This document shows positions 1-24,979 of a stretch of DNA of 35,325 bases, piece by piece. The first letter of the stretch is position 1. Every line of letters starts with the position of its first letter. Below the pieces are notes generated by a model that saw only the letters and a list, made by a program, of their open reading frames with translations, was not told the origin of the DNA and did no database searches. A program made the position numbers and the translations under genes. Origin of the DNA: a bacterium (lineage in GTDB: Bacteria; Actinomycetota; Acidimicrobiia; Acidimicrobiales; Bin134); the NCBI GenBank assembly GCA_026709815.1, contig JAPOSH010000115.1, positions 1 to 35,325 on the forward strand, in the 5' to 3' direction.

Positions 1-1434
1 CTCGGTAGTGTCACCGAGCACGTCGGCGATTTTCCCCGGTGACATATCGGCGGTCTCATCGAAACCCATGTTTTTTAACAGCTGGTCAAGCACTCCGGCC
101 GGTTCGCTACCGTAAACGGGCCACTGTCCATCCTTGGGGTCAACGTGGACATAGACGGCTCGGGCGTGAGGCTTCTCTCCAAGCCGATTGAGCCGTCCGA
201 GGCGCTGCGTCAGCGCCCGGGCACCGCACGCCTCGGTAACGAGGTAGTCGGCATCAAGGTCGGCGCCGACTTCGAGGGTCTGCGTGGCGACGACGACAAG
301 GTGCTTGCCGCCTCGTTCGCCTGGTAGTCGCCCAGCCCGCATCCTCTCTGAGAGCACTGCAACCACTTCGCCGGCTTCAGCCCCACGGGTTCTTCCGGTG
401 GCCACCTTCACGTCGCTATCGCGACGAGAGCCCAGTGCCTTCGCGGTGGCTAGAACTGTCTTGGGCGTGTTAGCGAAAACAAGAACCCCGACTGTGGTTT
501 CGGAGTCAACGCTGTCCAACAACTTCTTCACCTCAGAAGCTATGACACCTGCCGGGTCACCTCCTGAGTGTCTACAGACACTCAGAGGCTTCGGCGCTTC
601 AAGCCGCTTCTTGATCTCAGGATTAGACCTGTCGTTATCGTCGAGCTCGAACTTGCTGGATGCGGCGCTGCCGGTGGCGGTCAGCGCAGCAACCGTCACA
701 CCCATCCGCCGGTCCGACAAAGCCTGCGTCTCACCAGCTCCGAGTCCGTTGCAGCCACCTATGGCTCCTAGAAGCATCCGTAGCGGCTGGGCCAAGTGGG
801 CCTCGTCCAAGAGGACGAGGCTGTCCGTTCCGGCGAGCGCGGCGTCAATCGGGCGCATCGTCCTTGAAGATCCGTAGCCTCGGAAAAGCACCCGTGAACC
901 GTACATGGGGATGGTCGAGCATATGACCGCCGGCTGGGCCGGTGTGTCGGGGCGATTGTGGGAATCGCCGCCTCGCAAGCGGAGAGCCCGCAGCGGCGTG
1001 TCGCCTGCGGCGATGTTTCGAAGCCGGTCCGCAACCGCCCGAACTGCCTCCGCCGCCTCGCCGGCAATCCCGGACACCGCGAGAGAATGCCCGTCAATCA
1101 TGACATCGGACGGGTTCTCAGGGTCAGCCAGCATCGCTGCGACCTTCGACGCGTGCCGGTATGTGTCGTCGACGAGGAGGCGACGGTTCACCACCCACCA
1201 GATCCTTGTCGGAGTTGTACGGTCAGCTGGGGACAGATCTGCTTGGCAGGCAAGCGTCCAAACGGCTACGTCGACGCAAGCGGTTTTGCCAAGACCGGTG
1301 GGGATGCCGATCAATTCAGGCCATTCGCCATTGTCAGCCACTACATCAGCAAGGCGAGCCTGCCATGGGAACGGCTCACGCCCGTTAATCGCCCGGTACC
1401 ACTCGTGGAACGAGGGGCACTCAGGAATACTCAT
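1..1434 (-). CDS. cas3: Type I-G (I-U) CRISPR helicase Cas3, C-terminus beyond the left edge
   Basis: The frame is open from the ATG at 1434 to base 1 (478 codons) and leaves the window. It encodes an SF2 helicase: Walker A GIPTGLGKT at residues 43-51, a DEAH box at 210-213, a TAT motif III about 40 residues later, and motif VI QRLGRLNRLGE near residue 425. Cas3 is the helicase-nuclease recruited by Cascade to unwind and degrade invading DNA. In the I-G/I-U subtype the HD nuclease follows the helicase, so the HD domain would lie off the left edge; none is seen at the N-terminus. The start overlaps the csb2 stop as ATGA, indicating translational coupling in the order csb1-csb2-cas3. Codons are visibly less GC-rich than in the catabolic genes to the right, which fits acquisition by transfer. 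Confidence 0.9.
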   Translation of the reverse strand, partial: MSIPECPSFHEWYRAINGREPFPWQARLADVVADNGEWPELIGIPTGLGKTACVDVAVWTLACQADLSPADRTTPTRIWWVVNRRLLVDDTYRHASKVAAMLADPENPSDVMIDGHSLAVSGIAGEAAEAVRAVADRLRNIAAGDTPLRALRLRGGDSHNRPDTPAQPAVICSTIPMYGSRVLFRGYGSSRTMRPIDAALAGTDSLVLLDEAHLAQPLRMLLGAIGGCNGLGAGETQALSDRRMGVTVAALTATGSAASSKFELDDNDRSNPEIKKRLEAPKPLSVCRHSGGDPAGVIASEVKKLLDSVDSETTVGVLVFANTPKTVLATAKALGSRRDSDVKVATGRTRGAEAGEVVAVLSERMRAGRLPGERGGKHLVVVATQTLEVGADLDADYLVTEACGARALTQRLGRLNRLGEKPHARAVYVHVDPKDGQWPVYGSEPAGVLDQLLKNMGFDETADMSPGKIADVLGDTTE

Positions 1435-2828
1435 GGCAACTCCCTCTCTTCGGGGTCGTACGGAGCACACAGGCCGAGCCCGTAGCTGCGGGCAGCGCCG
1501 ATGACAACTGGGCCTTCAATCTCCTCATCGAATATGAGGCCGACATGGGCGTAAGGGCGATTCTGGGAATGACCGGGCCGACGAGTTTCAGAGGGGTGCA
1601 GGTCAACACCACCCGGTAGCAACGGCTTCCGGCTTATCCAATACTTGACTGGCTTGGGCAGTCCCGCCTGCTCGCACCAGCGAACCACTGCTCCCGAGTC
1701 TATGCGCCCATGCCGATCGCTGACCGCTGGAAGGACGGTTACCCATCGCCGCGCCGAGCGCGTCCATCTCCGGGGTTTCGTCGTCCATACTCTCCGGGAG
1801 CGGTCTATCTCTATCCGTCTGCCACCAGTCAGGAGCAGAGATGACATGGGCGACAGCGCAGCAACCAGGTTTCTGGCCTCTCCCTCGTCAATGCCGCCTG
1901 GCACCCAGACCGCGGCGCCGTGAAGCTGGCCGTCGGAATAGCGGTGGCCAGCATTGGGCAACACGAGGAACCGGGCCAACTGGTATTCGTCGCTGCTATT
2001 GATGTGACCGTGCAACCAGGCAGGCGGATCTCCTCTATATAGAGACAGGGCAGCTTGTTTGAGCGCGTGGGCAACTACCGCGGCCTGGCGGCCAGCCACT
2101 GGTGCCTTGAACGGAAGCCAGATCCGAACTCGGCCGCGCTCGGGATGCGGGATTGGAGTATCGGGGTGGCGGTACATGGCGCGCTGCTGATGTCGCCACG
2201 CTTGGCCCCGCGTCACTCCGTGCTCTGACCATGCGTCAAACGCTGCCTGCCATCTCTCCACGTCGCCGCGGCTGTGGACGTTGACGACCTCGGTGCCCTC
2301 ATCATCCGGGGTCCAAGCGGTGCTGTGGCTGGCTTCGAAGTCGGAATTCCTCGCTACCGTGATTTTTACCGGGGAGTCGGCACAACCTAGATATCCCACA
2401 CGGGCTGCCCGATACGCGATAGCTGCCATATCGTCGACGCTCACCTCGATGTCGTAGACGAACCGGACTGACGGATTCCGAGGAGCCACTCTCACGCCTG
2501 GGCGGATCAGCACACCTTTGCGAGCCGGATACTCCTGTTGCTGACCTGTTTTCCGGTCTTGCCCGGCTACGTAGCGCTCAAGGAGTGGCTGGTGGTACGG
2601 GGCTGGATCGGCATGGATTACCGGCGGGTCTGCCGCTGCGAGCAGACTCAGTTCGTCACCCGTTGTTCGACGGCATCGGTCACGAGTACCGTCGGCAGCT
2701 ATCAGGGCTGCGAGGAGACGAGCGGGTGACGGTGGCCACTCCCCGTGTGCCTGCCGCCCGGTTGGAGCGGAGCCATCTGGGTCGGCCCGATAGGTGCCGT
2801 GCAACAAATCAACATCAAAGACGAGCAC
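1431..2828 (-). CDS. csb2: Type I-G CRISPR protein Csb2 (Cas5-Cas6 fusion)
   Basis: A 465-residue protein starting at GTG 2828, one base after the csb1 stop. The N-terminus (MLVFDVDLLHGTYRA, followed by GEWPPSPARLLAAL) and the later GLCAPYDPEE tail match the Csb2/GSU0054 family. In type I-G/I-U effectors this single polypeptide supplies both the Cas5 function (holding the crRNA 5' handle) and the Cas6 function (pre-crRNA cleavage). The Cas5-like part should be N-terminal and the Cas6-like part C-terminal. The length is normal for the family. The gene sits between csb1 and cas3 with essentially no spacing, so the three are one operon. The catalytic residues of the Cas6-like half cannot be assigned from sequence alone. 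Confidence 0.9.
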   Translation of the reverse strand: MLVFDVDLLHGTYRADPDGSAPTGRQAHGEWPPSPARLLAALIAADGTRDRCRRTTGDELSLLAAADPPVIHADPAPYHQPLLERYVAGQDRKTGQQQEYPARKGVLIRPGVRVAPRNPSVRFVYDIEVSVDDMAAIAYRAARVGYLGCADSPVKITVARNSDFEASHSTAWTPDDEGTEVVNVHSRGDVERWQAAFDAWSEHGVTRGQAWRHQQRAMYRHPDTPIPHPERGRVRIWLPFKAPVAGRQAAVVAHALKQAALSLYRGDPPAWLHGHINSSDEYQLARFLVLPNAGHRYSDGQLHGAAVWVPGGIDEGEARNLVAALSPMSSLLLTGGRRIEIDRSRRVWTTKPRRWTRSARRWVTVLPAVSDRHGRIDSGAVVRWCEQAGLPKPVKYWISRKPLLPGGVDLHPSETRRPGHSQNRPYAHVGLIFDEEIEGPVVIGAARSYGLGLCAPYDPEERELP

Positions 2829-2829
2829 C

Positions 2830-4041
2830 CTACTGCCCTACAGAGTCGAGGTCCGGCCAAGTGGCCCGGATCGCGTCGGTCAATGACTTGTTGGGGGTAA
2901 GGATGACAGGGTCGGCACCCCACCCGTCGGTCGGGACATTGAGGGACCGGGCCGCTTCGAGGGCTTCTTGCAGCAAGCTCGCTGCGTTCCCGATGGCGAC
3001 ATCGGTTGAGTCGAGCCGAGATGTCTTGTCGGCTGGCAACAGATCTGTGCCGGACCGGAGCGCGAAGGGGCGTCCGAATGCTGTCTGGTGTGCGTGAAGC
3101 CCTAAGGCCGCAATAACGGTCCTTGCCGCAACATCCTGATCATCGGAGAAACCGTCACCGAGGTGGACCCGGCGCAACTGCGGGAACGAGAGAGTGGCTC
3201 GCTGGCTGACCCGCTGGAATGATACCGGTGCCAGCCCTGAGTCGGCGGGAACCTGTCCATGGCCGATGTTCGAGATCGCTCCAGCTTTCTTACCGCCTTT
3301 CGAGACAGATTTCTCGCCTTCGATGAGCTTCCACCCACTGCCGAGCAAATCGGCATCATCGAAATCCACCTTGCTGGTATCCTGGATGTTGTAGGGGTCG
3401 CCTTTGACTCCGAGGGTCCGGGTCAGTTCGTCAGGCTCCCCTCCCGAGGCGGGTTTCCAGCCGACGATCTCAGATACCCAAGCTCGGGCGTGCTTGGCCT
3501 GGGTGCGGTTGCTCCCGAGGTGCGATTGCCAAAAGCCATACAGCAGCGATTGGGGGAACCAGGCGACTAGCGCAGCGGCTGCGTCGGTCGTGGCATTAAT
3601 AATGGAACGTCCAATAGGAGACTTGACGAACGAACTGCCGTCTACGAGGGCATCGCGCAAATAGGCATCCCCGTTGCGGTGCGGCCATCGCAAGCTCGAC
3701 AGCCTGCGTGGAAGATGTGGGGGGAGGTGTGCGAAGTCCTCGCCGGTTAGATCCAGAATCAATCGGGGCGTGCCGGTCTGGTCGGCTGTCGCTTCCAACG
3801 CTGCCTCCAGACGGTTGGCCTGCGAGGGCACGTTGTCGATGATGATCACAGACGTTGGCTCAGCCGCGTTCGAACCCTCCCACCTTTTGTCATGCTGGTA
3901 GCGACCACCAGAGTAGATGGCCGGGTTCACCGGAGTGCCACCCCCTCCAACTGGCTCCAGCGCTGTGTCCAGCACAATCGCGCCACCGGTGGCGTCTTCG
4001 TCGCACGCTCCTCGCAGCATGCTCAGGGTTAGCTGGGTCAT
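2830..4041 (-). CDS. csb1: Type I-G CRISPR protein Csb1 (Cas7 backbone subunit)
   Basis: A 403-residue protein of the Csb1/GSU0053 family, the Cas7-like subunit that polymerises along crRNA in the I-G/I-U effector. Recognisable stretches are the N-terminal RGACDEDATGGAIVLDTAL, SVIIIDNVPSQANRLEAAL and the central FPQSLLYGFWQSHLGSNR. The ATG at 4041 is preceded by a purine-rich ribosome site (AGAAGGAGAGG), which supports this start and makes it the first gene of the csb1-csb2-cas3 operon. Codon choice is less GC-biased than in the metabolic genes of the window. No Cas8-like gene (Csx17 or Csb3) is visible in the window, so it should lie beyond cas3 to the left. Confidence 0.92.
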   Translation of the reverse strand: MTQLTLSMLRGACDEDATGGAIVLDTALEPVGGGGTPVNPAIYSGGRYQHDKRWEGSNAAEPTSVIIIDNVPSQANRLEAALEATADQTGTPRLILDLTGEDFAHLPPHLPRRLSSLRWPHRNGDAYLRDALVDGSSFVKSPIGRSIINATTDAAAALVAWFPQSLLYGFWQSHLGSNRTQAKHARAWVSEIVGWKPASGGEPDELTRTLGVKGDPYNIQDTSKVDFDDADLLGSGWKLIEGEKSVSKGGKKAGAISNIGHGQVPADSGLAPVSFQRVSQRATLSFPQLRRVHLGDGFSDDQDVAARTVIAALGLHAHQTAFGRPFALRSGTDLLPADKTSRLDSTDVAIGNAASLLQEALEAARSLNVPTDGWGADPVILTPNKSLTDAIRATWPDLDSVGQ

Positions 4042-5008: not shown

Positions 5009-6013
5009 TCAGTCGGCGGGCGGGGGCGGGGTGGCGGTTTGCAGGTAGTCGGGGGTGGCGTGATGGCGGAGGTAGTCGATGGGGTCGGCGCAGCGGTTGA
5101 GGGTGGCCGCAGCGTCGGTGGGAATGGGGCTGGGGCGCAGGGCGGATTTGGCGGTAACGGCCAGAGCGTGGTCGAGGAAGTCAGCGGCGGCGCGGATATG
5201 GGTGGCGGTGTTCTGAGCGGTGATCATCTGCTGGAATGAGTCCGACTGCCCCCGATAGGGGGCGAGCCTCCAGTTGGTGCGGGAGCCGTCGCATTCAGCG
5301 GTGTCGAGCGTACCCAGCACGCGGTCGACCAAAGGGCCAGAGGGGGTGGGACGGAGCTTTTCGGCCATGGCGTCGATGTTGTGGGTATTATCGAGATACC
5401 GGCGAAGGTGGAGCCTTCCCAGCGCAGTCAAGCTCTTCTCGATGCTCATGTGAGCGGACTCGAGCGCGGACAGGCAGGTGTTGTCGCGATCGGCGGAATG
5501 CCACTTGCCCGCAGCTGCCTCACCGGGAACGGATTTGAGAATTCGGACCAGTTCAAGATTCTTGCGGTGAGCCCCTTCGAGGTCTCCAAGGGCGAGGCCC
5601 CAGTCGTCTCTCGGCATGACAGTCTCCCCGGCGCACAGCGCCGAAGACGGGCAGGGGCGCTCAAAGAGGGTGATGCCGCAAGCGTGCGCTTCTCCGAGAA
5701 CGGAGGACCGGGCATGGTCCAAGCTCCACTCCCATTCGCCGATGGTGGCGAGGATCACCTCGCACTTGAGCCCGCACGCCGCCTCAGCCGCTTGGCGCAG
5801 GGCATATTCCACCGCACCACGATCATCGACGCACGAGCGATGCGGGCTGGAGACGACCACGATGTCGATGTCAGAACCGGGTTTTTGAGCCTGCTTGGCC
5901 ACCGACCCGAACACCATGACGCGCAAAACCCGCGGATCGTGCCCAGCAATCGCCTCAGCGGTGAGCGCAGCATCGTCAAGCGTCGGCGCTCTGTGCGCCA
6001 CCAGCGTCGCCAT
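5009..6013 (-). CDS. Fused MNT-HEPN protein (nucleotidyltransferase plus HEPN domain)
   Basis: A 334-residue protein from ATG 6013. A TTG at 6043 would add ten unconvincing residues; neither start has a clear ribosome site. The N-terminal domain is a minimal nucleotidyltransferase with GSVAKQAQKPGSDIDIVVV (G36-S37, D48 and D50) and a later acidic residue in CEVILA. The C-terminal half is helical and HEPN-like: SALESAHMSIEKSLTALG followed by RRYLDNTHNID, giving an R-x5-H arrangement resembling the HEPN RNase motif. In MNT-HEPN toxin-antitoxin pairs the HEPN RNase is silenced by AMP transfer from MNT; here both are on one chain. The motifs are seen; the toxin-antitoxin role is inference, and a stand-alone drug or tRNA nucleotidyltransferase is possible. 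An AT-rich stretch with TATACT near 6070 may be the promoter. Confidence 0.7.
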   Translation of the reverse strand: MATLVAHRAPTLDDAALTAEAIAGHDPRVLRVMVFGSVAKQAQKPGSDIDIVVVSSPHRSCVDDRGAVEYALRQAAEAACGLKCEVILATIGEWEWSLDHARSSVLGEAHACGITLFERPCPSSALCAGETVMPRDDWGLALGDLEGAHRKNLELVRILKSVPGEAAAGKWHSADRDNTCLSALESAHMSIEKSLTALGRLHLRRYLDNTHNIDAMAEKLRPTPSGPLVDRVLGTLDTAECDGSRTNWRLAPYRGQSDSFQQMITAQNTATHIRAAADFLDHALAVTAKSALRPSPIPTDAAATLNRCADPIDYLRHHATPDYLQTATPPPPAD

Positions 6014-6076
6014 GGGTTCAGGGTAACAACAAGACACCCGCAAGCACAGGGGAAATCAAAGTAATTTCAGTATATA

Positions 6077-16768: not shown

Positions 16769-19700
16769 TCAACCGCCGACGGCCAGCCAGGTAACGAGGT
16801 GGACGTCGTCGGAGGTGATCTCAGGTAGCGGGGCGGGAGGGACGTAGGGCTCGAGGCCAAGATCGCGGATGACTTCGAGGATCTTCTCGGCCTGGACAGC
16901 AGGATCGTCGGTGCTGGCCACGGCCACCTGGAAGGTGCGAATGGTGCGCTCGGAGTAGGGGGCGTTGATGGTGTCGATGGCGCGGTCGATGTCGTCTTGG
17001 ACGAGGCCAGGGGGTGGGTGCTGGCGGATGATCTCGGCGGCGCGGCGCAGCCGGGGGGCCAGCTTGGGCTGGAGGTTGGCCGGGTCGGCCATGGCGTTCC
17101 ATCGGTCCACGATGTGGACGCGGGCGGTCTCCCAGGCGGTGAAGGCGCCGGTGACGTCGGCCTCATCGAGACGACGGGGGGTGCTGAAGCCCGCCGGGGG
17201 GCGGGCGGTGTCGAGGCAGGCCAGGGTTTCGTCCCCGACGGGCTCGCCGCCCGCATCGCCGGTTGGCACAAAGCGGAATAACGGTTTGGGATGGTCGCCT
17301 ATTCGGGCGCAGAACACATAGCCGGCCTGCCCGTCGGGCGCGGCCATGCCGGAGCCGGCGCCCCAGGGCAGCGACTTGATCCGCTCGGCGAGGTCGGCGT
17401 CTTCCAGGGCTTGGCGCAGCTCCTGGCGAAACTGCTCGCCCGACAGCGCGCCGCGGGCAGTGCCGCCCCGCTCGAATAGCTCGGGGCTCTCGCGCCGGAG
17501 GCGCTCGATCTCCTCCCGGGTCTCGGCGAAGTTGACCTCGGCCCGCGCCGCCTGCTCGGGCAGCACCTCGCCCACCCCGATGCTGGCCGCCGCTTGGGCG
17601 ATCTTGAGGTGCAAGCGCTTTTCGAGGCCCAGCAGATCGTCGAGGCGGTCGTCGGGGAACACGCAGCGCAGGAACACCTCGGAGTGGTGAGAGCCGATCC
17701 GGTCGATGCGACCGTGGCGCTGCACCAGCCGCATGGGGTTCCAGGGCAGGTCGTAGTTGACGATGTGGCGGGCCTGCTGGAGGTTGACCCCTTCGGCCAA
17801 AACGTCGGTGGTCACCACGATGTCGTAGCGGTCGTCGGCGGCATCAGCCGGGGCGTCGGTGGTGAGGGGGGCGAACCCCCACAGCACCCGCTCCTTGCTC
17901 TCGGCGCCGGTGGCGCCGGACAACGAGGCGATACGCCCCCGATAAGGGGCCAGGCGCTCGTCGGCTTGGGCGGCTTGCACCAGATGCTCGTACACCCAGT
18001 CGACGGTGTCGGCGTAGTAGCTGAAGACGAGCACCTTGCGGCGATTGCGGGCATCGTCGTCGCCGATGCCCTCGGCGGCGGCTTCGGCGGCGATGGCGGC
18101 CAGCTCGTCCACCAGCGCAGCCAGGTTGGGATCGTGGCGGCGGGTCAAGGTGCGGGCCTCGGCGGCGAACGATCTCAGCAGGCCCCGGTCGCGGTCGGCG
18201 TGCTCCCGCAGGCGCCCCACGTCGTATCGGGCGGCGTCGTCGCCGACCCCGACGATGCCGTCCAAAAAGGCGTCGAGCTGCTTGTCGTCGGCTTCGTCGG
18301 AGTCGGTGGCGATCCAGTCGGCCAGGGCCTCGCCGGCCACCACCCGGCCGTTGCCGAGCAGCGACAAGAAGGCGTCGTGGCTTCTGGCCATGCGCTCGCA
18401 GGTCTCGGCGAAGGCGTGGGGCGACGACTCGAACCGCTTGAGCAGGCCCGAGCGCAACAGGCCGGCGAGCTGTATCTCGTAGGTGTCGGCCTGGCGGTCG
18501 AGGCGATACTGCGACGGGCAGTAGCGGGCCAGGCTGAGCGCGCCGGAGTCTTCGGCGCCAGCGTCGGGGTCGAGGGCTCGGGCGAAGCGGTCGAAGAACC
18601 CGGGCATCGCCGCGTCGAGGCTGTAGCTCACCTTGCGGACCCTGGGCGTGGGGAACACGATCTGCTGATCCTGTCCGCCCACCTTGATGGTGTCATTGGG
18701 ATAGAAGCGCTTGACGAAGGCCCGGGTGCGCCGCACCGCCACCGCGTCGAGCACGTCGAACAGGTGCTCGGGGGTCAGGTCGTCGGGGCCTTTGGCCATG
18801 GCGGCGGCGAAGTGGTCGCGCAGCGAGCGAATGCCGACGTCGGCGAAGGCGGCGTCGTTGCGCAGGAAGTAGCCCAGCAGGTGGTAGAGGTCCCACAGGC
18901 TGTTGTTCACCGGGGTGGCGGTGAGCATCACCAGCTTCTTGGGCGGCGACCCGCCCAGCAGTTGCCGCAGCGCTTGGGCCCGCTGGGTGCTGGGGTTGCG
19001 CAGGTTGTGGGCCTCGTCGATCACCACCATGGCGTAGTCGTTGATCGCCGCTTTCAGCTTGACGGCGTCGGTGTGCTCAGGGTTCAGCCGCCCATCGGCC
19101 ATGAGCTCTTCGTACGACACCAGCTCCACCGGCAACAGGTGCTCGGAGATGAACGCCCGCCACGGCCCGTCGCGCAGCGTGGCCGGGGTTATCACCAGCA
19201 CTCGCTGGCGGCGTTCCAGCGCCGCCTCCCGGATCAGCTCTCCGGCCAGGAAGGTCTTGCCCAAGCCGACCTCGTCGGCGATAACCACGCCGTTGTGCTC
19301 CTTCAGGATGCGCCGGGCTCGCCACAGCCCGTCGGACTGGAACGAGGTGAGATGGATCTGGGGCGCACCCTCGTCGGCGGCCTCGGCCTCCAACTCTTCG
19401 CCGTAGAGCTCCCACAGCATCCGCAGGTACACGAGTTGAGGGGCGTGGGGCTCGAAGCGGGCCTCGAACAGGGCGGCCAGGTCGTAGGGGGCGGCCTCGT
19501 CCCACAGCTCGTCGAACCAGTCCCGCACCTGGCCCACCACATGGGGCGAGTAGTTGCCCAGGTTCAGCTCCAAGTTGGCGGCCAGCCCGGCATAGGTGAA
19601 GTTGGACGACCCGGCCACCACCCCGTGCGAGCGATCCCCCACCAGAAAGGCCTTGCCGTGCAAGAACCGCCCCTCCAGACGGCGCACCTGCACCCGGCCC

Positions 19701-20101
19701 GAGCGCAGCCACTCCAGCAGGCGCCGAGCGGCGGCATCGGCCTCGAACGTGAAGCCCAGGTGATCGCGCTCGGCCAGCAGGTTCTGCTCGTGGCCCTCCA
19801 ACGCCCGGCGCAACCGGGTGCGGGCCGCCCGCTGGGGATTGGCCGACTCCGAGCCCAACGCCCGCCGCCGGCTCTCCGGCTGAGCAGGCTCGGCCCCCAA
19901 CAGCAGCCGCACCCCGGTGGCCTGATCCAGCGAATCGGCCAGAAGCGAGTAGCCGCCCACGTTAAAATAGGCGGTGGCGATGTCCACGCCCGCCCCGCCC
20001 ACGAACCCGGTCGCGGCGTGGGAGATGAACCCGCAGAGCGCCTCCGCCACCGTCTGCCCGTCCCGGTTGAGCGCCAGCTCCGGCTTCTCAAACCCGGTCA
20101 T
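16769..20101 (-). CDS. PLD-SNF2 helicase of a restriction/defence module
   Basis: A 1110-residue protein from ATG 20101, preceded by GAGGTGG. The N-terminal phospholipase-D-type nuclease domain has FLHGKAFLVGD (H148, K150) and GSSNFTYAGL (164-173). It is followed by a SNF2-like SF2 helicase with Walker A DEVGLGKT (276-283), DEAH 362-365, LTATPVNN, a C-terminal RecA domain with TTDVLAEGVNLQQA, and motif VI QRHGRIDRIGS. Such fusions act as the translocase/nuclease arm of restriction-like systems. It lies downstream of the adenine methyltransferase gene on the same strand, so the pair should restrict unmodified DNA. DISARM class 1 also joins an SNF2 helicase, an N6-adenine methylase and a PLD protein, but DrmA and DrmB are absent here. 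Confidence 0.88.
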   Translation of the reverse strand: MTGFEKPELALNRDGQTVAEALCGFISHAATGFVGGAGVDIATAYFNVGGYSLLADSLDQATGVRLLLGAEPAQPESRRRALGSESANPQRAARTRLRRALEGHEQNLLAERDHLGFTFEADAAARRLLEWLRSGRVQVRRLEGRFLHGKAFLVGDRSHGVVAGSSNFTYAGLAANLELNLGNYSPHVVGQVRDWFDELWDEAAPYDLAALFEARFEPHAPQLVYLRMLWELYGEELEAEAADEGAPQIHLTSFQSDGLWRARRILKEHNGVVIADEVGLGKTFLAGELIREAALERRQRVLVITPATLRDGPWRAFISEHLLPVELVSYEELMADGRLNPEHTDAVKLKAAINDYAMVVIDEAHNLRNPSTQRAQALRQLLGGSPPKKLVMLTATPVNNSLWDLYHLLGYFLRNDAAFADVGIRSLRDHFAAAMAKGPDDLTPEHLFDVLDAVAVRRTRAFVKRFYPNDTIKVGGQDQQIVFPTPRVRKVSYSLDAAMPGFFDRFARALDPDAGAEDSGALSLARYCPSQYRLDRQADTYEIQLAGLLRSGLLKRFESSPHAFAETCERMARSHDAFLSLLGNGRVVAGEALADWIATDSDEADDKQLDAFLDGIVGVGDDAARYDVGRLREHADRDRGLLRSFAAEARTLTRRHDPNLAALVDELAAIAAEAAAEGIGDDDARNRRKVLVFSYYADTVDWVYEHLVQAAQADERLAPYRGRIASLSGATGAESKERVLWGFAPLTTDAPADAADDRYDIVVTTDVLAEGVNLQQARHIVNYDLPWNPMRLVQRHGRIDRIGSHHSEVFLRCVFPDDRLDDLLGLEKRLHLKIAQAAASIGVGEVLPEQAARAEVNFAETREEIERLRRESPELFERGGTARGALSGEQFRQELRQALEDADLAERIKSLPWGAGSGMAAPDGQAGYVFCARIGDHPKPLFRFVPTGDAGGEPVGDETLACLDTARPPAGFSTPRRLDEADVTGAFTAWETARVHIVDRWNAMADPANLQPKLAPRLRRAAEIIRQHPPPGLVQDDIDRAIDTINAPYSERTIRTFQVAVASTDDPAVQAEKILEVIRDLGLEPYVPPAPLPEITSDDVHLVTWLAVGG

Positions 20102-20441: not shown

Positions 20442-21338
20442 TCACTCTAGGAGCCTTTGGAAGTGGGTGAGGACGGCGGCGTGGCGTTCGGCGTAGTCGA
20501 CTGTTTCGCTGAAGGTTTCGTAGATCACGGCCAAATCGTCTTCGTCGAGGCCGTAGAGGTGAGCGACGCAGGCATCGAGTTCGCAAACGAGATCGTGCTT
20601 GACCACCTCGTCGTTCGCCGACCCCACCGGCACCCCCACCTCAGCCGCCCAATCAGCAAAGCGCTCATCAGTTGCCGCCAACCGCCCAGCAATCTCCACC
20701 ACCCGGTCGCGAACAGGGTGGCCCTCACCGGGGTCGGGGATGGGGAAGCTATTGAGAATGTGGAAATTCAAGTTGAGTTCGACAACCCGGCGGGCATACC
20801 AATCCAAGACCATCGACGACAGCACCCCGAGTAGGAATGCCTGATCTGATTCACCGCCCTTGGGCCAAAGTAAGTAGGGCCCCTTATTCGTGATCACTAG
20901 CTCACCGGGCAGCAGAGCTGCAACCACTGTGCGAGTATTCGTACTGTTGGTTATATCGCGAAAAGCAATACGCGGGTTGAGGCAAGGCAGGGTTTCAGGG
21001 TCTTCAATGTGTTCGACAGTGAATTCTGAAAATGGCGACTTGGATGTCCGGTGCTGGCGCTGCCGCTTATCTTGGAGATGATGGGTAATGGCCTCAGCGT
21101 CGACCGAGGCGTAATAGACCCCGGTGTCGGGGTTCCATAGGTCAAACGATGCGCCTTTGTATACCAGCCAGCGACCGTTTTCACCGTTCACGGCTGCTCT
21201 GCCCTCGTCGAGGATGAGTTGGCCCTTGTTGGCCGTGGCGTGGAGTTCTGCGAACGGGCGGACTCTCCACCGTCGAGGACGAAGAGTCGTTTGTCGTTGG
21301 TGGCGTCGAGTTCCCGGTGCGGGCGGACTTTCCACCAT
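20442..21338 (-). CDS. C-terminal target-recognition part of the methyltransferase, currently out of frame
   Basis: The open frame runs from before the ATG at 21338 to the stop at 20442 and in fact extends back through the GACC tract. It encodes the family's C-terminal region: RRWRVRPFAELHATANK, then YKGASFDLWNPDTGVYYAS, NPRIAFRDI, YLLWPKGGESDQAFLLG and NFHILNSFPIPDPGEG. It ends in a helical tail with ACVAHLYGLDEDDL. These are standard parts of Eco57I/PglX-like target-recognition regions, not an independent protein, and no ribosome site precedes the ATG. The frame is one base behind the upstream methyltransferase frame. It joins that frame if the GACC tract gains one unit or loses two, giving a 1513-residue protein. 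Confidence 0.85.
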   Translation of the reverse strand: MVESPPAPGTRRHQRQTTLRPRRWRVRPFAELHATANKGQLILDEGRAAVNGENGRWLVYKGASFDLWNPDTGVYYASVDAEAITHHLQDKRQRQHRTSKSPFSEFTVEHIEDPETLPCLNPRIAFRDITNSTNTRTVVAALLPGELVITNKGPYLLWPKGGESDQAFLLGVLSSMVLDWYARRVVELNLNFHILNSFPIPDPGEGHPVRDRVVEIAGRLAATDERFADWAAEVGVPVGSANDEVVKHDLVCELDACVAHLYGLDEDDLAVIYETFSETVDYAERHAAVLTHFQRLLE

Positions 21339-24300
21339 CGAGGATGAACCTGTGCTTGTCGATCGTTGCGTTGAGATCGCCTTGCAGCGGTCTGGCCCTC
21401 CAAGTCCGATAAAATGGTCGGTCGGTCGGTCGGTCGGTCGGTCGGTCGGTCGGTCGGTCGGTCGGTCGGCTCCGCGTCGAGGCGAGGGTGTTGCTTCATC
21501 TTGCGCCAGACGCGAAATGCCGCCCTATTGGGCAGTTCGGGGAAAGAAGCCGTGGCCGACCATGTGGTGAATTCGGTGACTGGTACTAGTTCGGGCTTGC
21601 CATCTACTAGCTCGCAGAAGTTGGCCAGAGAGCTGGCCGGGCCGGGGTAGATCGCTACATAGGGTTCGTCAGGGTCGCCCTCAAAGCCACCCCCGGGGCT
21701 CGGTTCGGCGATTGAGCTTGCAGCCGGCGACAAGGGCGACGGAGTAGCGGCCGTCAACCCCGTCGAAGGCCCACTGCTTGGTGTTGAGGCAGGTGACGAC
21801 GGAAAGCACCGGGTGACTGCCACCAACGCCACCGTGTAGGAGTTGTGAACCCCCTCGAACACCCAGCCCTTGTGATTGATAACCGTCGCCATCGACATCT
21901 GCCGTAGTAGACTTGCTGTCTGATGCTGTCTGATGCTGTCTGATGCTGTCTGATGCTGTCTGATGCTGTCTGATGCTGTCTGATGCTGTCTGATGCTGTC
22001 TGATGCTGTCTGATGCTTCAGGGCTTCGGTGCGCCAGCGAGCCATTCCGTCGGCATTGGCCGCGGTTCGCGGCAGTACCATTCCGATTCTTCCGCCTTCT
22101 CTGCACAGGTTCAGGTTTGCCCACGCGAACGCTTGGTAATAGTCCGTCCGCCCTGAGCCCAGCCCGGGAAAGGCTCTACGCAGCAGCTTCCGCATGTCGT
22201 CGGCCAGTTCCAGCTCAGCTTGGAACTGATCCTCTAGGTCTGGTCTGGTCTGGCGAAACCTGGTGATCTGAGCGTTCATGCGGTTGATAGGCAGACCGCG
22301 GATTCCAGGCAGGTGCATTCCCCACCAGGCGTGCTCCTGGACCACCACCTGCTCCCATGGGGGATTGCCAACGAGGCAGTCGAAACCAGGGCGGTCTCGC
22401 AAGAAAACCTCGGGGAACGCTGCGGGGAAGTGGACGGGCTGGAAGGCGCTGACGGTGCCGACGACTGCCTCGGCCTGTGACCTCAATAAAAAGGACGCTT
22501 CGTCGAACCTCTCGGGAAGCGCCCCCCTGCCCGCCCGGTGAGCGACTATCAGATCAAAAAGCGCTCTGGCTCCGGCCACATCCTCTCGAGCCTGTAAGTG
22601 CGCTTCACGGGCCTCGTCGATCTCTCGCTTAGTGGCGTCTGAGGTCCGTCCGAGCCTGGCCAACGCCGACCAGGAGCGGTCGAGCATCGCCGATACCTGC
22701 TCGTGAAACATGCTCGGTTTGTGGGATGCGCCCTGCGGGTCGAAAGCCGCCGCCGCCTCATCAAGAGTGCCCACCCCGGTGAGGCTGTCGCCGCAGACCA
22801 GGTTGTGGTCTAAGAAGCTGAGGGGCAGGCCGGCCACGAAGGTGTGGACCCAGATGGCGAGGCGGGCCAGCTCGACGGCGACGCGGTTCTTGTCCACGCC
22901 GTAGATGCAATGGCGGGCCACCTGGCGGCGCAGCAGCGAGCTGGACTCGATCTCCACCCCATCGGCCAACTCTCCCAGCGCACCCAGGGCCGCGGCGCGC
23001 AGGCGGTTCAGCTCGGCGGTCACCGCCGGCACCGGGTGCAACGCCAGCCATCCCGACAGGCGGGCCTCGATGCGGTCGACCGCGGCTACCAGGAAATGGG
23101 CCGAGCCCATGGCGATGTCGGCACAGCGGAAGTCGAAGAACGCCTCGGCCAGCGCGGCGTCGTCGCCCGCCTCCCGCAGCTCATCCAGCCGGGCGATGTG
23201 ATCGTCGAGCGCCGGCTCCAGCGCGTTGCTGAGCAAGTGCTCCACCGCGAACGGCTTGGTGAAATAAGAGCCGGTGGCCTTGCGCACCCCGGAGCGGTTG
23301 TGGAAATACACCGAGCCCGCCTCCACCTCCACCGCATCGCCCTCAGCGGCGGGCACATACTGCTCTTTGCCCTTGACCGCCTTGACGGCCAGGTCGTCTT
23401 GGGCCACCGACAGCTTCGACTCCAAAAGGCCCTCATAGATGGTGCCGAACTCCCGCACCGACAGCGACCGGAAGTCCACCGGCCCCACCCCTTCGGGCCC
23501 CTCGTCCACCAGCACCGCCGACAGGGCGGGGCCGAACTCGGCATTGGTGAGCTCGATTTCGGCGATGGCCGCCCCCGACGGGCTCACCTGGGCATCGGCG
23601 GAGAACAGGCCGCCGTTGTAGGCAGGCACCCCCCAATCGGCGTTGCCGTGGTTCACCGCATCCCAGAGCTGGTTCACGTCGCCCCATAAGTCGGTGGCCC
23701 GTCCGTCGTAGCCGGCCCGGCCCTCGCGGCGGTTATCGGCCAGCCGTCGGGCGATGCGCGACAGGGAGTGGTCGGCGTAGCGGCCGTTGGTGCGATACGG
23801 CAGCAGATCCTTGTCCTCGGCGTAGGCCACGAACAGCACCCGGAACAGCACCACCATGACCTGCTCATAGGCCGCGGCCAGCTCGCCCTCGCTCAGTTCA
23901 CCGCCAGGCTGGGAACCCCCCGCAATATATCTATCTATGGCATCTCTGGCGGGCCGAGCAGCGCCGAGGCGGGCGGCCACCGCCCGGGCCAAAGCCGGCA
24001 CCGTCTGGTGGTACACCCGCTCGCGCAGCCGCACCGCCAATTCGGCCACGAAGTCCCCCGACCGCTCCAGGATCTGGCTGAGCATGCCGCCATCGGCCAG
24101 AGCCTCAGCGGAGAACAGCAAGTGGAGGTAGCCGGCCAACTCGGTCGGGACCAGCGACAGGTTCAGCTCCACGAAGGTCTCAGCCCGGCCTTTGCGGCCC
24201 ACACCGGTGTCGGGGCGGGCGGCGTAGAGGCGGATCTCCGAGGCTCGGGTGAGCAGCACCCACTCCACCCGATGCTGGTCGGCCAACGCCAGCGCCCGAG

Positions 24301-24979
24301 ACACCGGCGAGGCGCTGTCGAACCGGCTCGACGGCGCCTCGAACGGCTCGTCCTCGTCGCAGAACACGGCCACGGCGTGGTTGCGTCCCCCGATGGTGAG
24401 CATCGAGGCGTTGGAAGCCAGCGATTGGATCTGAAAGCCCAGCCCCTCCACCAAACGGCGGCCCCGGCGGCCCAAAAGCGGCAGGGCCCGGCGCGTGGCT
24501 TCGGGCCAGTCGCTCCGCTCGGGCACGCCGGCCCGGAGCTCCTGGGTGGCCAGCAGGCCCACATTGCGGAGTCCGGGAAAGGGGGACTCCAACTCCGGCA
24601 AGGCCGCCAGCAAAAAGCGGGTGGCAGCATGGTGGCTGGGCTCGCTCAGGGCCACCTCGGCCAGGCGCTCGGCCTGCGACACCTCGATGCCGTGATGCAC
24701 CACCGGCGGCTCGCCCACCGGACCGCACAGCGACACCCGCTGACCCTCGGCGGTGGGATAGAACGCCGCCAGCAGCACCGGGCTGGCCCGGCCCGCCCGC
24801 CGCTTCGACCACGCCTCGCGCAGGTGGGCGGCTCGGGGCTGGGCCGCAGCCCGAACCAGGGCCACCTCCAAGCCGTTGGGCGCCCCCTGGACGAACACCC
24901 CCGCCGGGATCAGCAACGATGGAAACCCCGCCGGCGCCGACCAGGCGATGGGATCCCGGTCTAGGAGAAAGTCGTCCAT
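21188..24979 (-). CDS. Phase-variable adenine-specific DNA methyltransferase (Eco57I/PglX-like), frame as sequenced
   Basis: From ATG 24979 the frame reads 1263 residues and stops at 21188. After a long N-terminal region (VLFRVLFVAYAEDKDLLPY, ALADQHRVEWVLLT) comes SYFTKPFAVEHLL and a SAM-binding motif I DIAMGSAHFL (from D621). The N6-adenine motif NPPW is at 872-875, then the target-recognition region. Residues ~988-1022 come from a 10-bp repeat tract (DSIRQHQTAS) and ~1171-1188 from a GACC tract (TDRP). The last ~75 residues are frameshifted relative to the family, because the conserved C-terminus lies in another frame at 20442-21338. As sequenced, the product lacks most of its target-recognition end and is probably OFF. 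It precedes the PLD-SNF2 helicase gene. The ribosome site AAGGG is 10 bases before the start. Confidence 0.88.
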   Translation of the reverse strand: MDDFLLDRDPIAWSAPAGFPSLLIPAGVFVQGAPNGLEVALVRAAAQPRAAHLREAWSKRRAGRASPVLLAAFYPTAEGQRVSLCGPVGEPPVVHHGIEVSQAERLAEVALSEPSHHAATRFLLAALPELESPFPGLRNVGLLATQELRAGVPERSDWPEATRRALPLLGRRGRRLVEGLGFQIQSLASNASMLTIGGRNHAVAVFCDEDEPFEAPSSRFDSASPVSRALALADQHRVEWVLLTRASEIRLYAARPDTGVGRKGRAETFVELNLSLVPTELAGYLHLLFSAEALADGGMLSQILERSGDFVAELAVRLRERVYHQTVPALARAVAARLGAARPARDAIDRYIAGGSQPGGELSEGELAAAYEQVMVVLFRVLFVAYAEDKDLLPYRTNGRYADHSLSRIARRLADNRREGRAGYDGRATDLWGDVNQLWDAVNHGNADWGVPAYNGGLFSADAQVSPSGAAIAEIELTNAEFGPALSAVLVDEGPEGVGPVDFRSLSVREFGTIYEGLLESKLSVAQDDLAVKAVKGKEQYVPAAEGDAVEVEAGSVYFHNRSGVRKATGSYFTKPFAVEHLLSNALEPALDDHIARLDELREAGDDAALAEAFFDFRCADIAMGSAHFLVAAVDRIEARLSGWLALHPVPAVTAELNRLRAAALGALGELADGVEIESSSLLRRQVARHCIYGVDKNRVAVELARLAIWVHTFVAGLPLSFLDHNLVCGDSLTGVGTLDEAAAAFDPQGASHKPSMFHEQVSAMLDRSWSALARLGRTSDATKREIDEAREAHLQAREDVAGARALFDLIVAHRAGRGALPERFDEASFLLRSQAEAVVGTVSAFQPVHFPAAFPEVFLRDRPGFDCLVGNPPWEQVVVQEHAWWGMHLPGIRGLPINRMNAQITRFRQTRPDLEDQFQAELELADDMRKLLRRAFPGLGSGRTDYYQAFAWANLNLCREGGRIGMVLPRTAANADGMARWRTEALKHQTASDSIRQHQTASDSIRQHQTASDSIRQHQTASLLRQMSMATVINHKGWVFEGVHNSYTVALVAVTRCFPSSPASTPSSGPSTGLTAATPSPLSPAASSIAEPSPGGGFEGDPDEPYVAIYPGPASSLANFCELVDGKPELVPVTEFTTWSATASFPELPNRAAFRVWRKMKQHPRLDAEPTDRPTDRPTDRPTDRPTILSDLEGQTAARRSQRNDRQAQVHPRWWKVRPHRELDATNDKRLFVLDGGESARSQNSTPRPTRANSSSTRAEQP
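21211..21406 (-). repeat. Three imperfect tandem copies of a ~65-bp coding segment, one in each frame
   Basis: On the minus strand, copies 2 (21340-21276) and 3 (21275-21211) are exactly 65 bp and agree at about 46 positions by hand count; copy 1 (about 21406-21341) is more diverged. Each encodes the same element but in a different frame: TWRARPLQGDLNATIDKHRF, WWKVRPHRELDATNDKRLF and RWRVRPFAELHATANKGQL. Because 65 leaves remainder two on division by three, each copy shifts the frame. Only the frame of copy 3 continues into the conserved C-terminus. Confidence 0.85.
21416..21467. repeat. Tetranucleotide tract, 13 perfect GGTC units (GACC in the coding sense)
   Basis: Thirteen uninterrupted units, followed by GG and then a mismatch. 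The tract lies inside the methyltransferase reading frame (peptide repeat TDRP). All frames through it are free of stops. A change of one unit shifts the frame, as in known phase-variable methyltransferase genes with tetranucleotide tracts. By frame arithmetic, full length requires 14 or 11 units rather than 13. Confidence 0.97.
21718..21895 (-). repeat. 92-bp-spaced imperfect duplication inside the methyltransferase gene
   Basis: One copy (about 21895-21810) encodes INHKGWVFEGVHNSYTVALV in the main frame. The next (about 21803-21718) encodes LNTKQWAFDGVDGRYSVALV in another frame. The codons for the matching tryptophans begin at 21865 and 21773, 92 bases apart, which is not a multiple of three. 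In the main frame the second copy is read as a serine/proline/alanine-rich low-complexity stretch of about 38 residues, longer than relatives would be expected to have here. Confidence 0.75.
21914..22017. repeat. 10-bp tandem repeat, 9 full TGATGCTGTC units plus partial ends
   Basis: Nine perfect units (21921-22010) are flanked by 7-base partial units on both sides, 104 bp in all. In the coding sense the unit is GACAGCATCA, and three units encode DSIRQHQTAS in every frame with no stop. As 10 is not a multiple of three, each unit gained or lost changes the frame. In the sequenced state the frame after the tract is the productive one; both alternatives hit stops soon after (about 21754 and 21681). 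Confidence 0.97.

Follow-up and report, generated by a model that had tools for sequence, protein, structure and literature searches.

The 35,325-nucleotide contig JAPOSH010000115.1 (assembly GCA_026709815.1; hereafter the window) comes from an uncultured Acidimicrobiia metagenome-assembled genome (MAG) of 2.8 Mb (244 contigs, 89% complete). It carries a locus for an N6-methyladenine (m6A) methyltransferase (MTase) of the type IIG/PglX kind, with two repeat tracts, A and B, upstream of the target recognition domain (TRD). The system is probably anti-phage in role. Features were mapped with PADLOC, Tandem Repeats Finder (TRF), segment hidden Markov models (HMMs) and reading-frame analysis, and are as follows:

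20442..24979, minus strand: whole methyltransferase locus (N-terminal region, MTase core, TRD), from PADLOC and reading frames
23420..24979, minus strand: N-terminal region; AlphaFold pLDDT 85, weak likeness to IIG/HsdR nuclease domains
22019..22165, minus strand: M6, the MTase core segment directly before tract A (HMM map)
21914..22017, minus strand: tract A, decanucleotide AGCATCAGAC x10.4 (TRF)
21806..21901, minus strand: motif A1 copy 1, in frame x (the frame of the N part), QMSMATVINHKGWVFEGVHNSYTVALVAVTRC (HMM map and selection test)
21726..21803, minus strand: motif A1 copy 2, in frame x-1, TCLNTKQWAFDGVDGRYSVALVA (HMM map; own-frame purifying selection, p=0.0002, n=24)
21681..21694, minus strand: prfB-like +1 frameshift signal GGGGGTGGCTTTGA; TGA 21681-21683 ends the copy-2 frame, and a +1 shift leads to frame x
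21470..21658, minus strand: A2 segment, in frame x; its third frame stops at TAG 21655-21657
21416..21469, minus strand: tract B, tetranucleotide CCGA/GACC x13.5 (TRF)
21334..21408, minus strand: D motif copy 1, in frame 2, WRARPLQGDLNATIDKHRFILDGG
21254..21328, minus strand: D motif copy 2, in frame 1, the one that translation would at present enter from tract B, RELDATNDKRLFVLDGG
21189..21263, minus strand: D motif copy 3, in frame 3, the TRD frame, AELHATANKGQLILDEG
21181..21191, minus strand: stop/start overlap GTGAACGGTGA; GTG 21189-21191 starts the TRD, frame-1 TGA 21188-21190, frame-2 TGA 21181-21183
20442..21191, minus strand: TRD reading frame (C1-C2-C3 segments), separately initiable
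16769..20101, minus strand: PLD + SNF2/Helicase_C protein, probable restriction partner, the next gene downstream

TRF placed tract A, (TGCTGTCTGA)x10.4, at 21914-22017 and tract B, (GGTC)x13.5, at 21416-21469, both 100% perfect. A preliminary description made from the sequence alone had recognised two stop-free tracts in coding sequence, and both are indeed free of stops in all frames, if slightly longer than it had counted. The rest of the window contains no array of more than about 3 copies, save two short, weak runs, a GCC array of 9 copies at 79% (a multiple of 3) and GGTCT at 3.4 copies, and tracts A and B are far beyond chance. As neither unit length is a multiple of 3, the peptide repeat that a tract encodes is the same whichever frame is read. 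The N-terminal part, on the minus strand, meets no stop from 24979 across both tracts until 21188, and the conserved C-terminus lies in a different frame, in the open reading frame (ORF) 20442-21338. The earlier frame arithmetic was reproduced: one GACC unit more, or two fewer, gives a single ORF of 1513 codons. The present allele had been described as locked out of frame, a reading that is probably wrong. Tract A is in phase with motif A1 copy 1, and tract B leads ribosomes in frame 1 via D copy 2 to TGA 21188-21190, which overlaps the TRD GTG 21189-21191 (GTGA, 21188-21191), so the locus looks split rather than simply dead in its predicted translation. One added GACC gives the fusion phase, and the remaining phase is frame 2, with its stop at TGA 21181-21183.

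To place the window in its family, approximately 57 distinct loci were mapped by segment HMMs; since the loci are related, the counts below are not independent, and most tract lengths are taken from MAG assemblies. Relatives with named records are mostly Acidimicrobiia, some of them Candidatus Poriferisocius, a genus of sponge symbionts. Loci carry no tract, B only, A and B, or A and B plus a third site C. Tract-less relatives are single-frame genes with single motif copies. Among loci with duplications, tracts occupy the homologous sites in 23/24 (A) and 32/32 (B), and their phases together occupy all three frames at each site. Units there measure 1, 2, 4, 5, 8, 10 or 11 bp; none is a multiple of 3, and those of different loci at the same site are unrelated in sequence. 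The tracts are thus in-coding tandem repeats with units that are not multiples of 3, as in phase-variable genes mediated by simple sequence repeats.

Unit number also differs among near-identical alleles: L037, L054 and L036 differ at the tracts, although these are species-representative assemblies and not members of one clone. L037 and L054 are 99.66% identical over 5291 aligned bp (18 substitutions), with within-gene indels only at the three tracts (poly-G of A, 9 vs 11; CT of B, 11.5 vs 14.5; poly-G of C, 11 vs 12); an extra gap near the end of the alignment stems from a fourth, more distant sequence and the placement of poly-G columns. The nearest relative of the window has the same unit kinds in other counts (10 bp, 5.3 vs 10.4; 4 bp, 6.5 vs 13.5). 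That an actinobacterial methyltransferase varies in phase through repeat tracts of two different unit lengths had been suggested for the window; this is supported, and the tracts prove to be family-wide. At site B of L034, L050, L056, L080 and L091, two arrays abut whose units differ by one base (for example GTCC/GACC and CATC/CAAC), which suggests a route from one unit type to another. A number of MAG contigs terminate at a tract site or shortly after it (L013/L041, L014/L042, L011/L039), two of them in or near poly-G, and for this reason the tracts probably break assemblies, so that such genes are under-counted.

At site A, motif A1 occurs twice only in loci with the tract-A architecture, and copy 2 always lies in frame x-1. 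The consensus of copy 2 is distinct, TCLNTKQWAFDGVDGRYTVALVA against VINHKGWVFEGVHNSYTVALVA (an example peptide is CLNTKQWAFDGVDGR), and its divergence among species therefore came after the duplication. Differences among copies 2 fall at.15/.10/.36 by own codon position (p=0.0002, n=24 loci, by column permutation rather than a tree-based model). In frame x the same stretch reads as a Ser/Pro/Thr-rich linker, and constraint on that linker would give another pattern. The codon-position pattern shows purifying selection on copy 2 as read in its own frame.

The copy-2 frame is open to a TGA in 23/24 loci (approximately 7.7 expected) and ends in ..GGGGGTGG CTT TGA. The conserved word at this end, GGGGGTGGCYTTGA, has the layout of the prfB +1 frameshift signal, namely a Shine-Dalgarno (SD)-like run, three nucleotides, CTTT and UGA (PMC12421855), and all elements of such a site are present: an SD-like run of the AGGGGG type, a 3-nt spacer, slippery CTTT and a premature UGA. 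GG[AG]GGTGGC[CT]TTGA lies at the frame junction in 22/24 loci, with columns 96-100% conserved except the C/T position, and is absent from loci without the A1 duplication. Variants have CCTTGA or lack the leading A. A +1 shift at the signal TGA leads to frame x, entering A2. In L047, where tract A has been lost, copy 2 contains a stop and the G run is shorter. Reinitiation was set aside as the return route at tract A, there being no nearby in-frame NTG in 23/24 loci. The prfB gene of the window's own genome is one continuous ORF with no frameshift site, and the site is lacking in all Actinomycetota prfB surveyed, across 2,658 genomes (PMC12421855). GGGGGTGGCYTTGA is also found in L124 (G000:C135:10556-10569), with similar sites in sister genomes, inside another conserved gene and away from any frame junction, which makes a useful negative control.

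At site B, a unit of approximately 65 bp (2 mod 3) is repeated after the tract, the D motif (GDLNATNDKHRF..) of each copy lying one frame beyond that of the copy before. Own-frame constraint is evident for the first and the last D copy (p=0.0006 and p=0.004). Off-frame stops are depleted in the D region (0.0033 and 0.0103 per codon, vs 0.034 and 0.039 in C1-C2) and then fall on or close to an NTGA, the NTG of which opens the TRD frame. In 27/32 loci (4.9 expected), no stop interrupts the TRD+1 off-frame between the first D copy and the stop that overlaps the start of the TRD. An SD-like match of at least 4 nt occurs in 63%, vs 16% of shuffles. In the three-copy clade, inner D copies mostly retain NTGA, with the encoded residue varying among V, M and L. 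A prfB-like signal was searched for at site B and not found; NTGA overlaps stand there instead. In 14/32 loci a stop bars fusion in every phase, and because the TRD of those loci is stop-free (C1-C2) and constrained at.25/.10/.64, a separately translated TRD is the simplest account. It had been concluded that only one of nine phase combinations is full-length; this does not follow, since the other frames are not empty, and another tract-A phase meets the selected copy 2 and the prfB-like +1 signal.

Six relatives (L037, L040, L043, L045, L054 and L057) have two TRDs in tandem, the second running off the locus in L043. These carry a poly-G tract, site C, in the first TRD between the C2 and C3 segments, and the second TRD starts at an ATGA overlap; in L037 it is 68% identical to the window TRD. 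Site C thus appears to repeat the logic of site B between the first and second TRD.

With respect to the identity of the gene, PADLOC matched both halves to one REase_MTase_IIG model (N part 655 bits, C part 194 bits). The NPPW and GSxH columns are invariant and Pfam Eco57I matches, and the gene has motif I and the NPPW motif IV in a Rossmann MTase with a TRD after it, as expected for a gamma-class m6A MTase with a TRD. Modelled from a tract-less relative, the MTase-TRD part matches PglX/BrxX (Z ~19), CamA, MmeI and BpuSI. A search of solved structures with a profile returned CamA and BseCI only, and the single window protein matched none. The N-terminal model is confident (pLDDT 85), yet it matches IIG/HsdR nuclease regions weakly (Z ~6); Foldseek gave no significant match for it, the usual PD-(D/E)xK (E/Q)xK motif was not recognised by eye in this region, and the window N part had no NCBIfam match. 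PglX of Streptomyces has been reported to vary at a G tract, and the likeness to PglX is one of structure, the PglX/BrxX proteins of BREX/Pgl sharing the MTase and TRD fold (VIA Z ~19), but does not extend to family membership: relative L047 scores 21.3 bits with the BREX equivalog model BREX_2_MTaseX against a cut-off of 400, the partner here is a PLD-SNF2 helicase, and no other BREX gene was found among the neighbours scanned.

Relatives whose flank is long enough, including those that lack tracts, also have the PLD + SNF2 helicase gene directly downstream, which makes it a plausible restriction-type partner. It is not a DISARM helicase by the NCBIfam DrmD model (185.7 bits vs a cut-off of 610), and PADLOC found no separate drmA, drmB or drmC among 10 neighbouring ORFs, the part of the genome that was searched. 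Farther away, approximately 16 kb from the methyltransferase, Cas_GSU0054 and Cas_GSU0053 (Pfam; type I-G/I-U kind) lie at 1431-4041 on the minus strand, and near these CRISPR-associated genes a nucleotidyltransferase-domain protein is encoded at 5009-6043, also on the minus strand.

From the directly observed sequences, frames, tract-length differences, own-frame selection on copies and conserved signals, we infer slippage in cells, frameshifting, reinitiation and altered activity or specificity. Tract slippage would select the reading frame of the MTase/specificity gene. In contrast to classical ON/OFF switching, spare protein segments would occupy the frames that follow each tract. In phase x at tract A, motif copy 1 would be read straight through; in phase x-1, copy 2 would be read and followed by a prfB-type +1 ribosomal frameshift at CUU/CCU UGA into frame x; the third phase would truncate the protein. 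At tract B, in three-copy loci such as the window, each phase would read one D copy; one phase would fuse the TRD to the MTase, and in the others translation would stop at or near the NTGA overlap and the TRD would be restarted as its own chain. In the relatives with poly-G site C, either TRD1 would be completed or the second TRD restarted. A change in repeat length thus seems not merely to break the gene but to exchange protein parts or separate them. We favour, as probably correct, a phase-variable multi-state isoform and fused/split switch in a two-gene MTase/PLD-SNF2 helicase system. The chances are about even that the tracts form a frame selector whose alternative frames code by design, so that every slippage state would produce its own functional protein (with another core hairpin of the MTase, another tail, or a TRD that is fused, split off or the second of two), a design that out-of-frame paralogous motif copies, a prfB-type +1 frameshift and stop/start overlaps would make possible.

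The nearest known kinds are tract-driven fusion or splitting of specificity units, as in NgoAV, and C-terminal phase variation. In the latter, described in Neisseria gonorrhoeae and Helicobacter canadensis, a tract near the 3' part switches the protein end among three frames, and in some genes one frame gives a fusion with the downstream coding sequence (PMC5320596); what differs here is a selected paralogous motif copy per frame, off-frame stops placed on start codons, and several tracts. In the type I restriction-modification system NgoAV, a poly-G in hsdS sets a truncated (split) or fused specificity unit, a switch that experimentally changes the recognition sequence (PMC9577141). That system has one homopolymer in a type I S subunit, whereas ours has an IIG/PglX-like MTase, two to three varied tracts and alternate-frame copies. 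Campylobacter jejuni NCTC11168 likewise has a tract-controlled IIG-type MTase, and the accessible part of that report (PMC4889913) describes a stochastic expression switch, in a proteobacterium, and no spare frames. The programmed frameshift of prfB shares the SD-like GGGGG, the 3-nt spacer, CTT TGA and the +1 shift (PMC12421855), but here the gene is another one, the phylum has a site-less prfB, and the shift is needed only in one tract phase. Neither selected alternate-frame paralogous segments with a prfB-like signal nor phase variation in sponge symbionts was found in the open-licence papers searched, and the accessible part of PMC3711429 describes no design joining phase variation with programmed frameshifting.

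Several observations weigh against the favoured switch. L075 has lost the prfB-like signal, some loci have CCT, and TGA is mostly followed by G where C is the favoured base. At least one conserved but unrelated gene of the genus contains the 14-mer too and has no frame junction; the motif alone therefore proves nothing, and it was rejected as a stand-alone marker. The bias of middle D copies towards their own frame is only weak (p=0.08), one of the phases at B in two-copy loci passes through no D copy, and most loci are from MAGs, many built from short reads. Mycobacterium smegmatis shifts at only approximately 6% at the prfB motif (PMC12421855), and given this value and the site-less prfB of Actinomycetota, the +1 step at tract A may be inefficient, making copy 2 a low-dose state. 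The same weak shifting would suit an alternative, which we consider unlikely, in which alternative-frame copies are kept for truncated products, so that the copy-2 TGA ends translation by design and A2-TRD is not made in that phase. Own-frame selection needs copy-2 translation and not recoding, in keeping with this alternative. However, conservation extends to the single base in the SD-like run, the 3-nt spacing and the slippery Y-TT, and a +1 shift at the signal returns exactly to A2.

A classical two-tract ON/OFF switch, in which only the single-ORF combination gives an enzyme and the copies and signals are passive leftovers of duplication, is also improbable, if marginally less so. ON/OFF switching is the common mode of coding tracts, L046, L047, L049 and L056 are plain long ORFs that stand in the fused frame, and at tract A the third phase does truncate. 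Such a switch would never use the frames in which constraint is seen on A1 copy 2, the first D copy and the last, however, nor does it account for the intact TRD in 14/32 loci where no phase gives fusion, or for signals sitting exactly at frame junctions. It is quite doubtful that the tracts serve mainly as recombination joints for exchange of MTase/TRD segments, with frame effects secondary. Unit types change freely, and second TRDs and extra D copies follow tracts, as joints would predict, but near-identical alleles differ in unit number and not in segments, and recombination would not need units that are never a multiple of 3. An assembly artefact or decaying pseudogene is very improbable. 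The window does come from a fragmented MAG, and assembly error had been raised as a possible refutation, but the tracts (54 and 104 bp) fit within common read length, their units are perfect, unrelated unit types occupy the same sites in many species, chromosome-scale assemblies (L048, L052, L061) also contain tracts, and purifying selection persists in all phases.

If the multi-state fused/split switch is correct, phase variation of methylation would extend to an uncultured, host-associated actinobacterial group, and a prfB-like signal would be in use in a phylum reported to have lost the prfB site. 'Off' frames would be under selection, and one gene would have several states of defence or specificity open to it without having to fall silent. 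Such a switch would be phase variation with several states in place of ON and OFF, and would have evolved among uncultured actinobacteria living as sponge symbionts.
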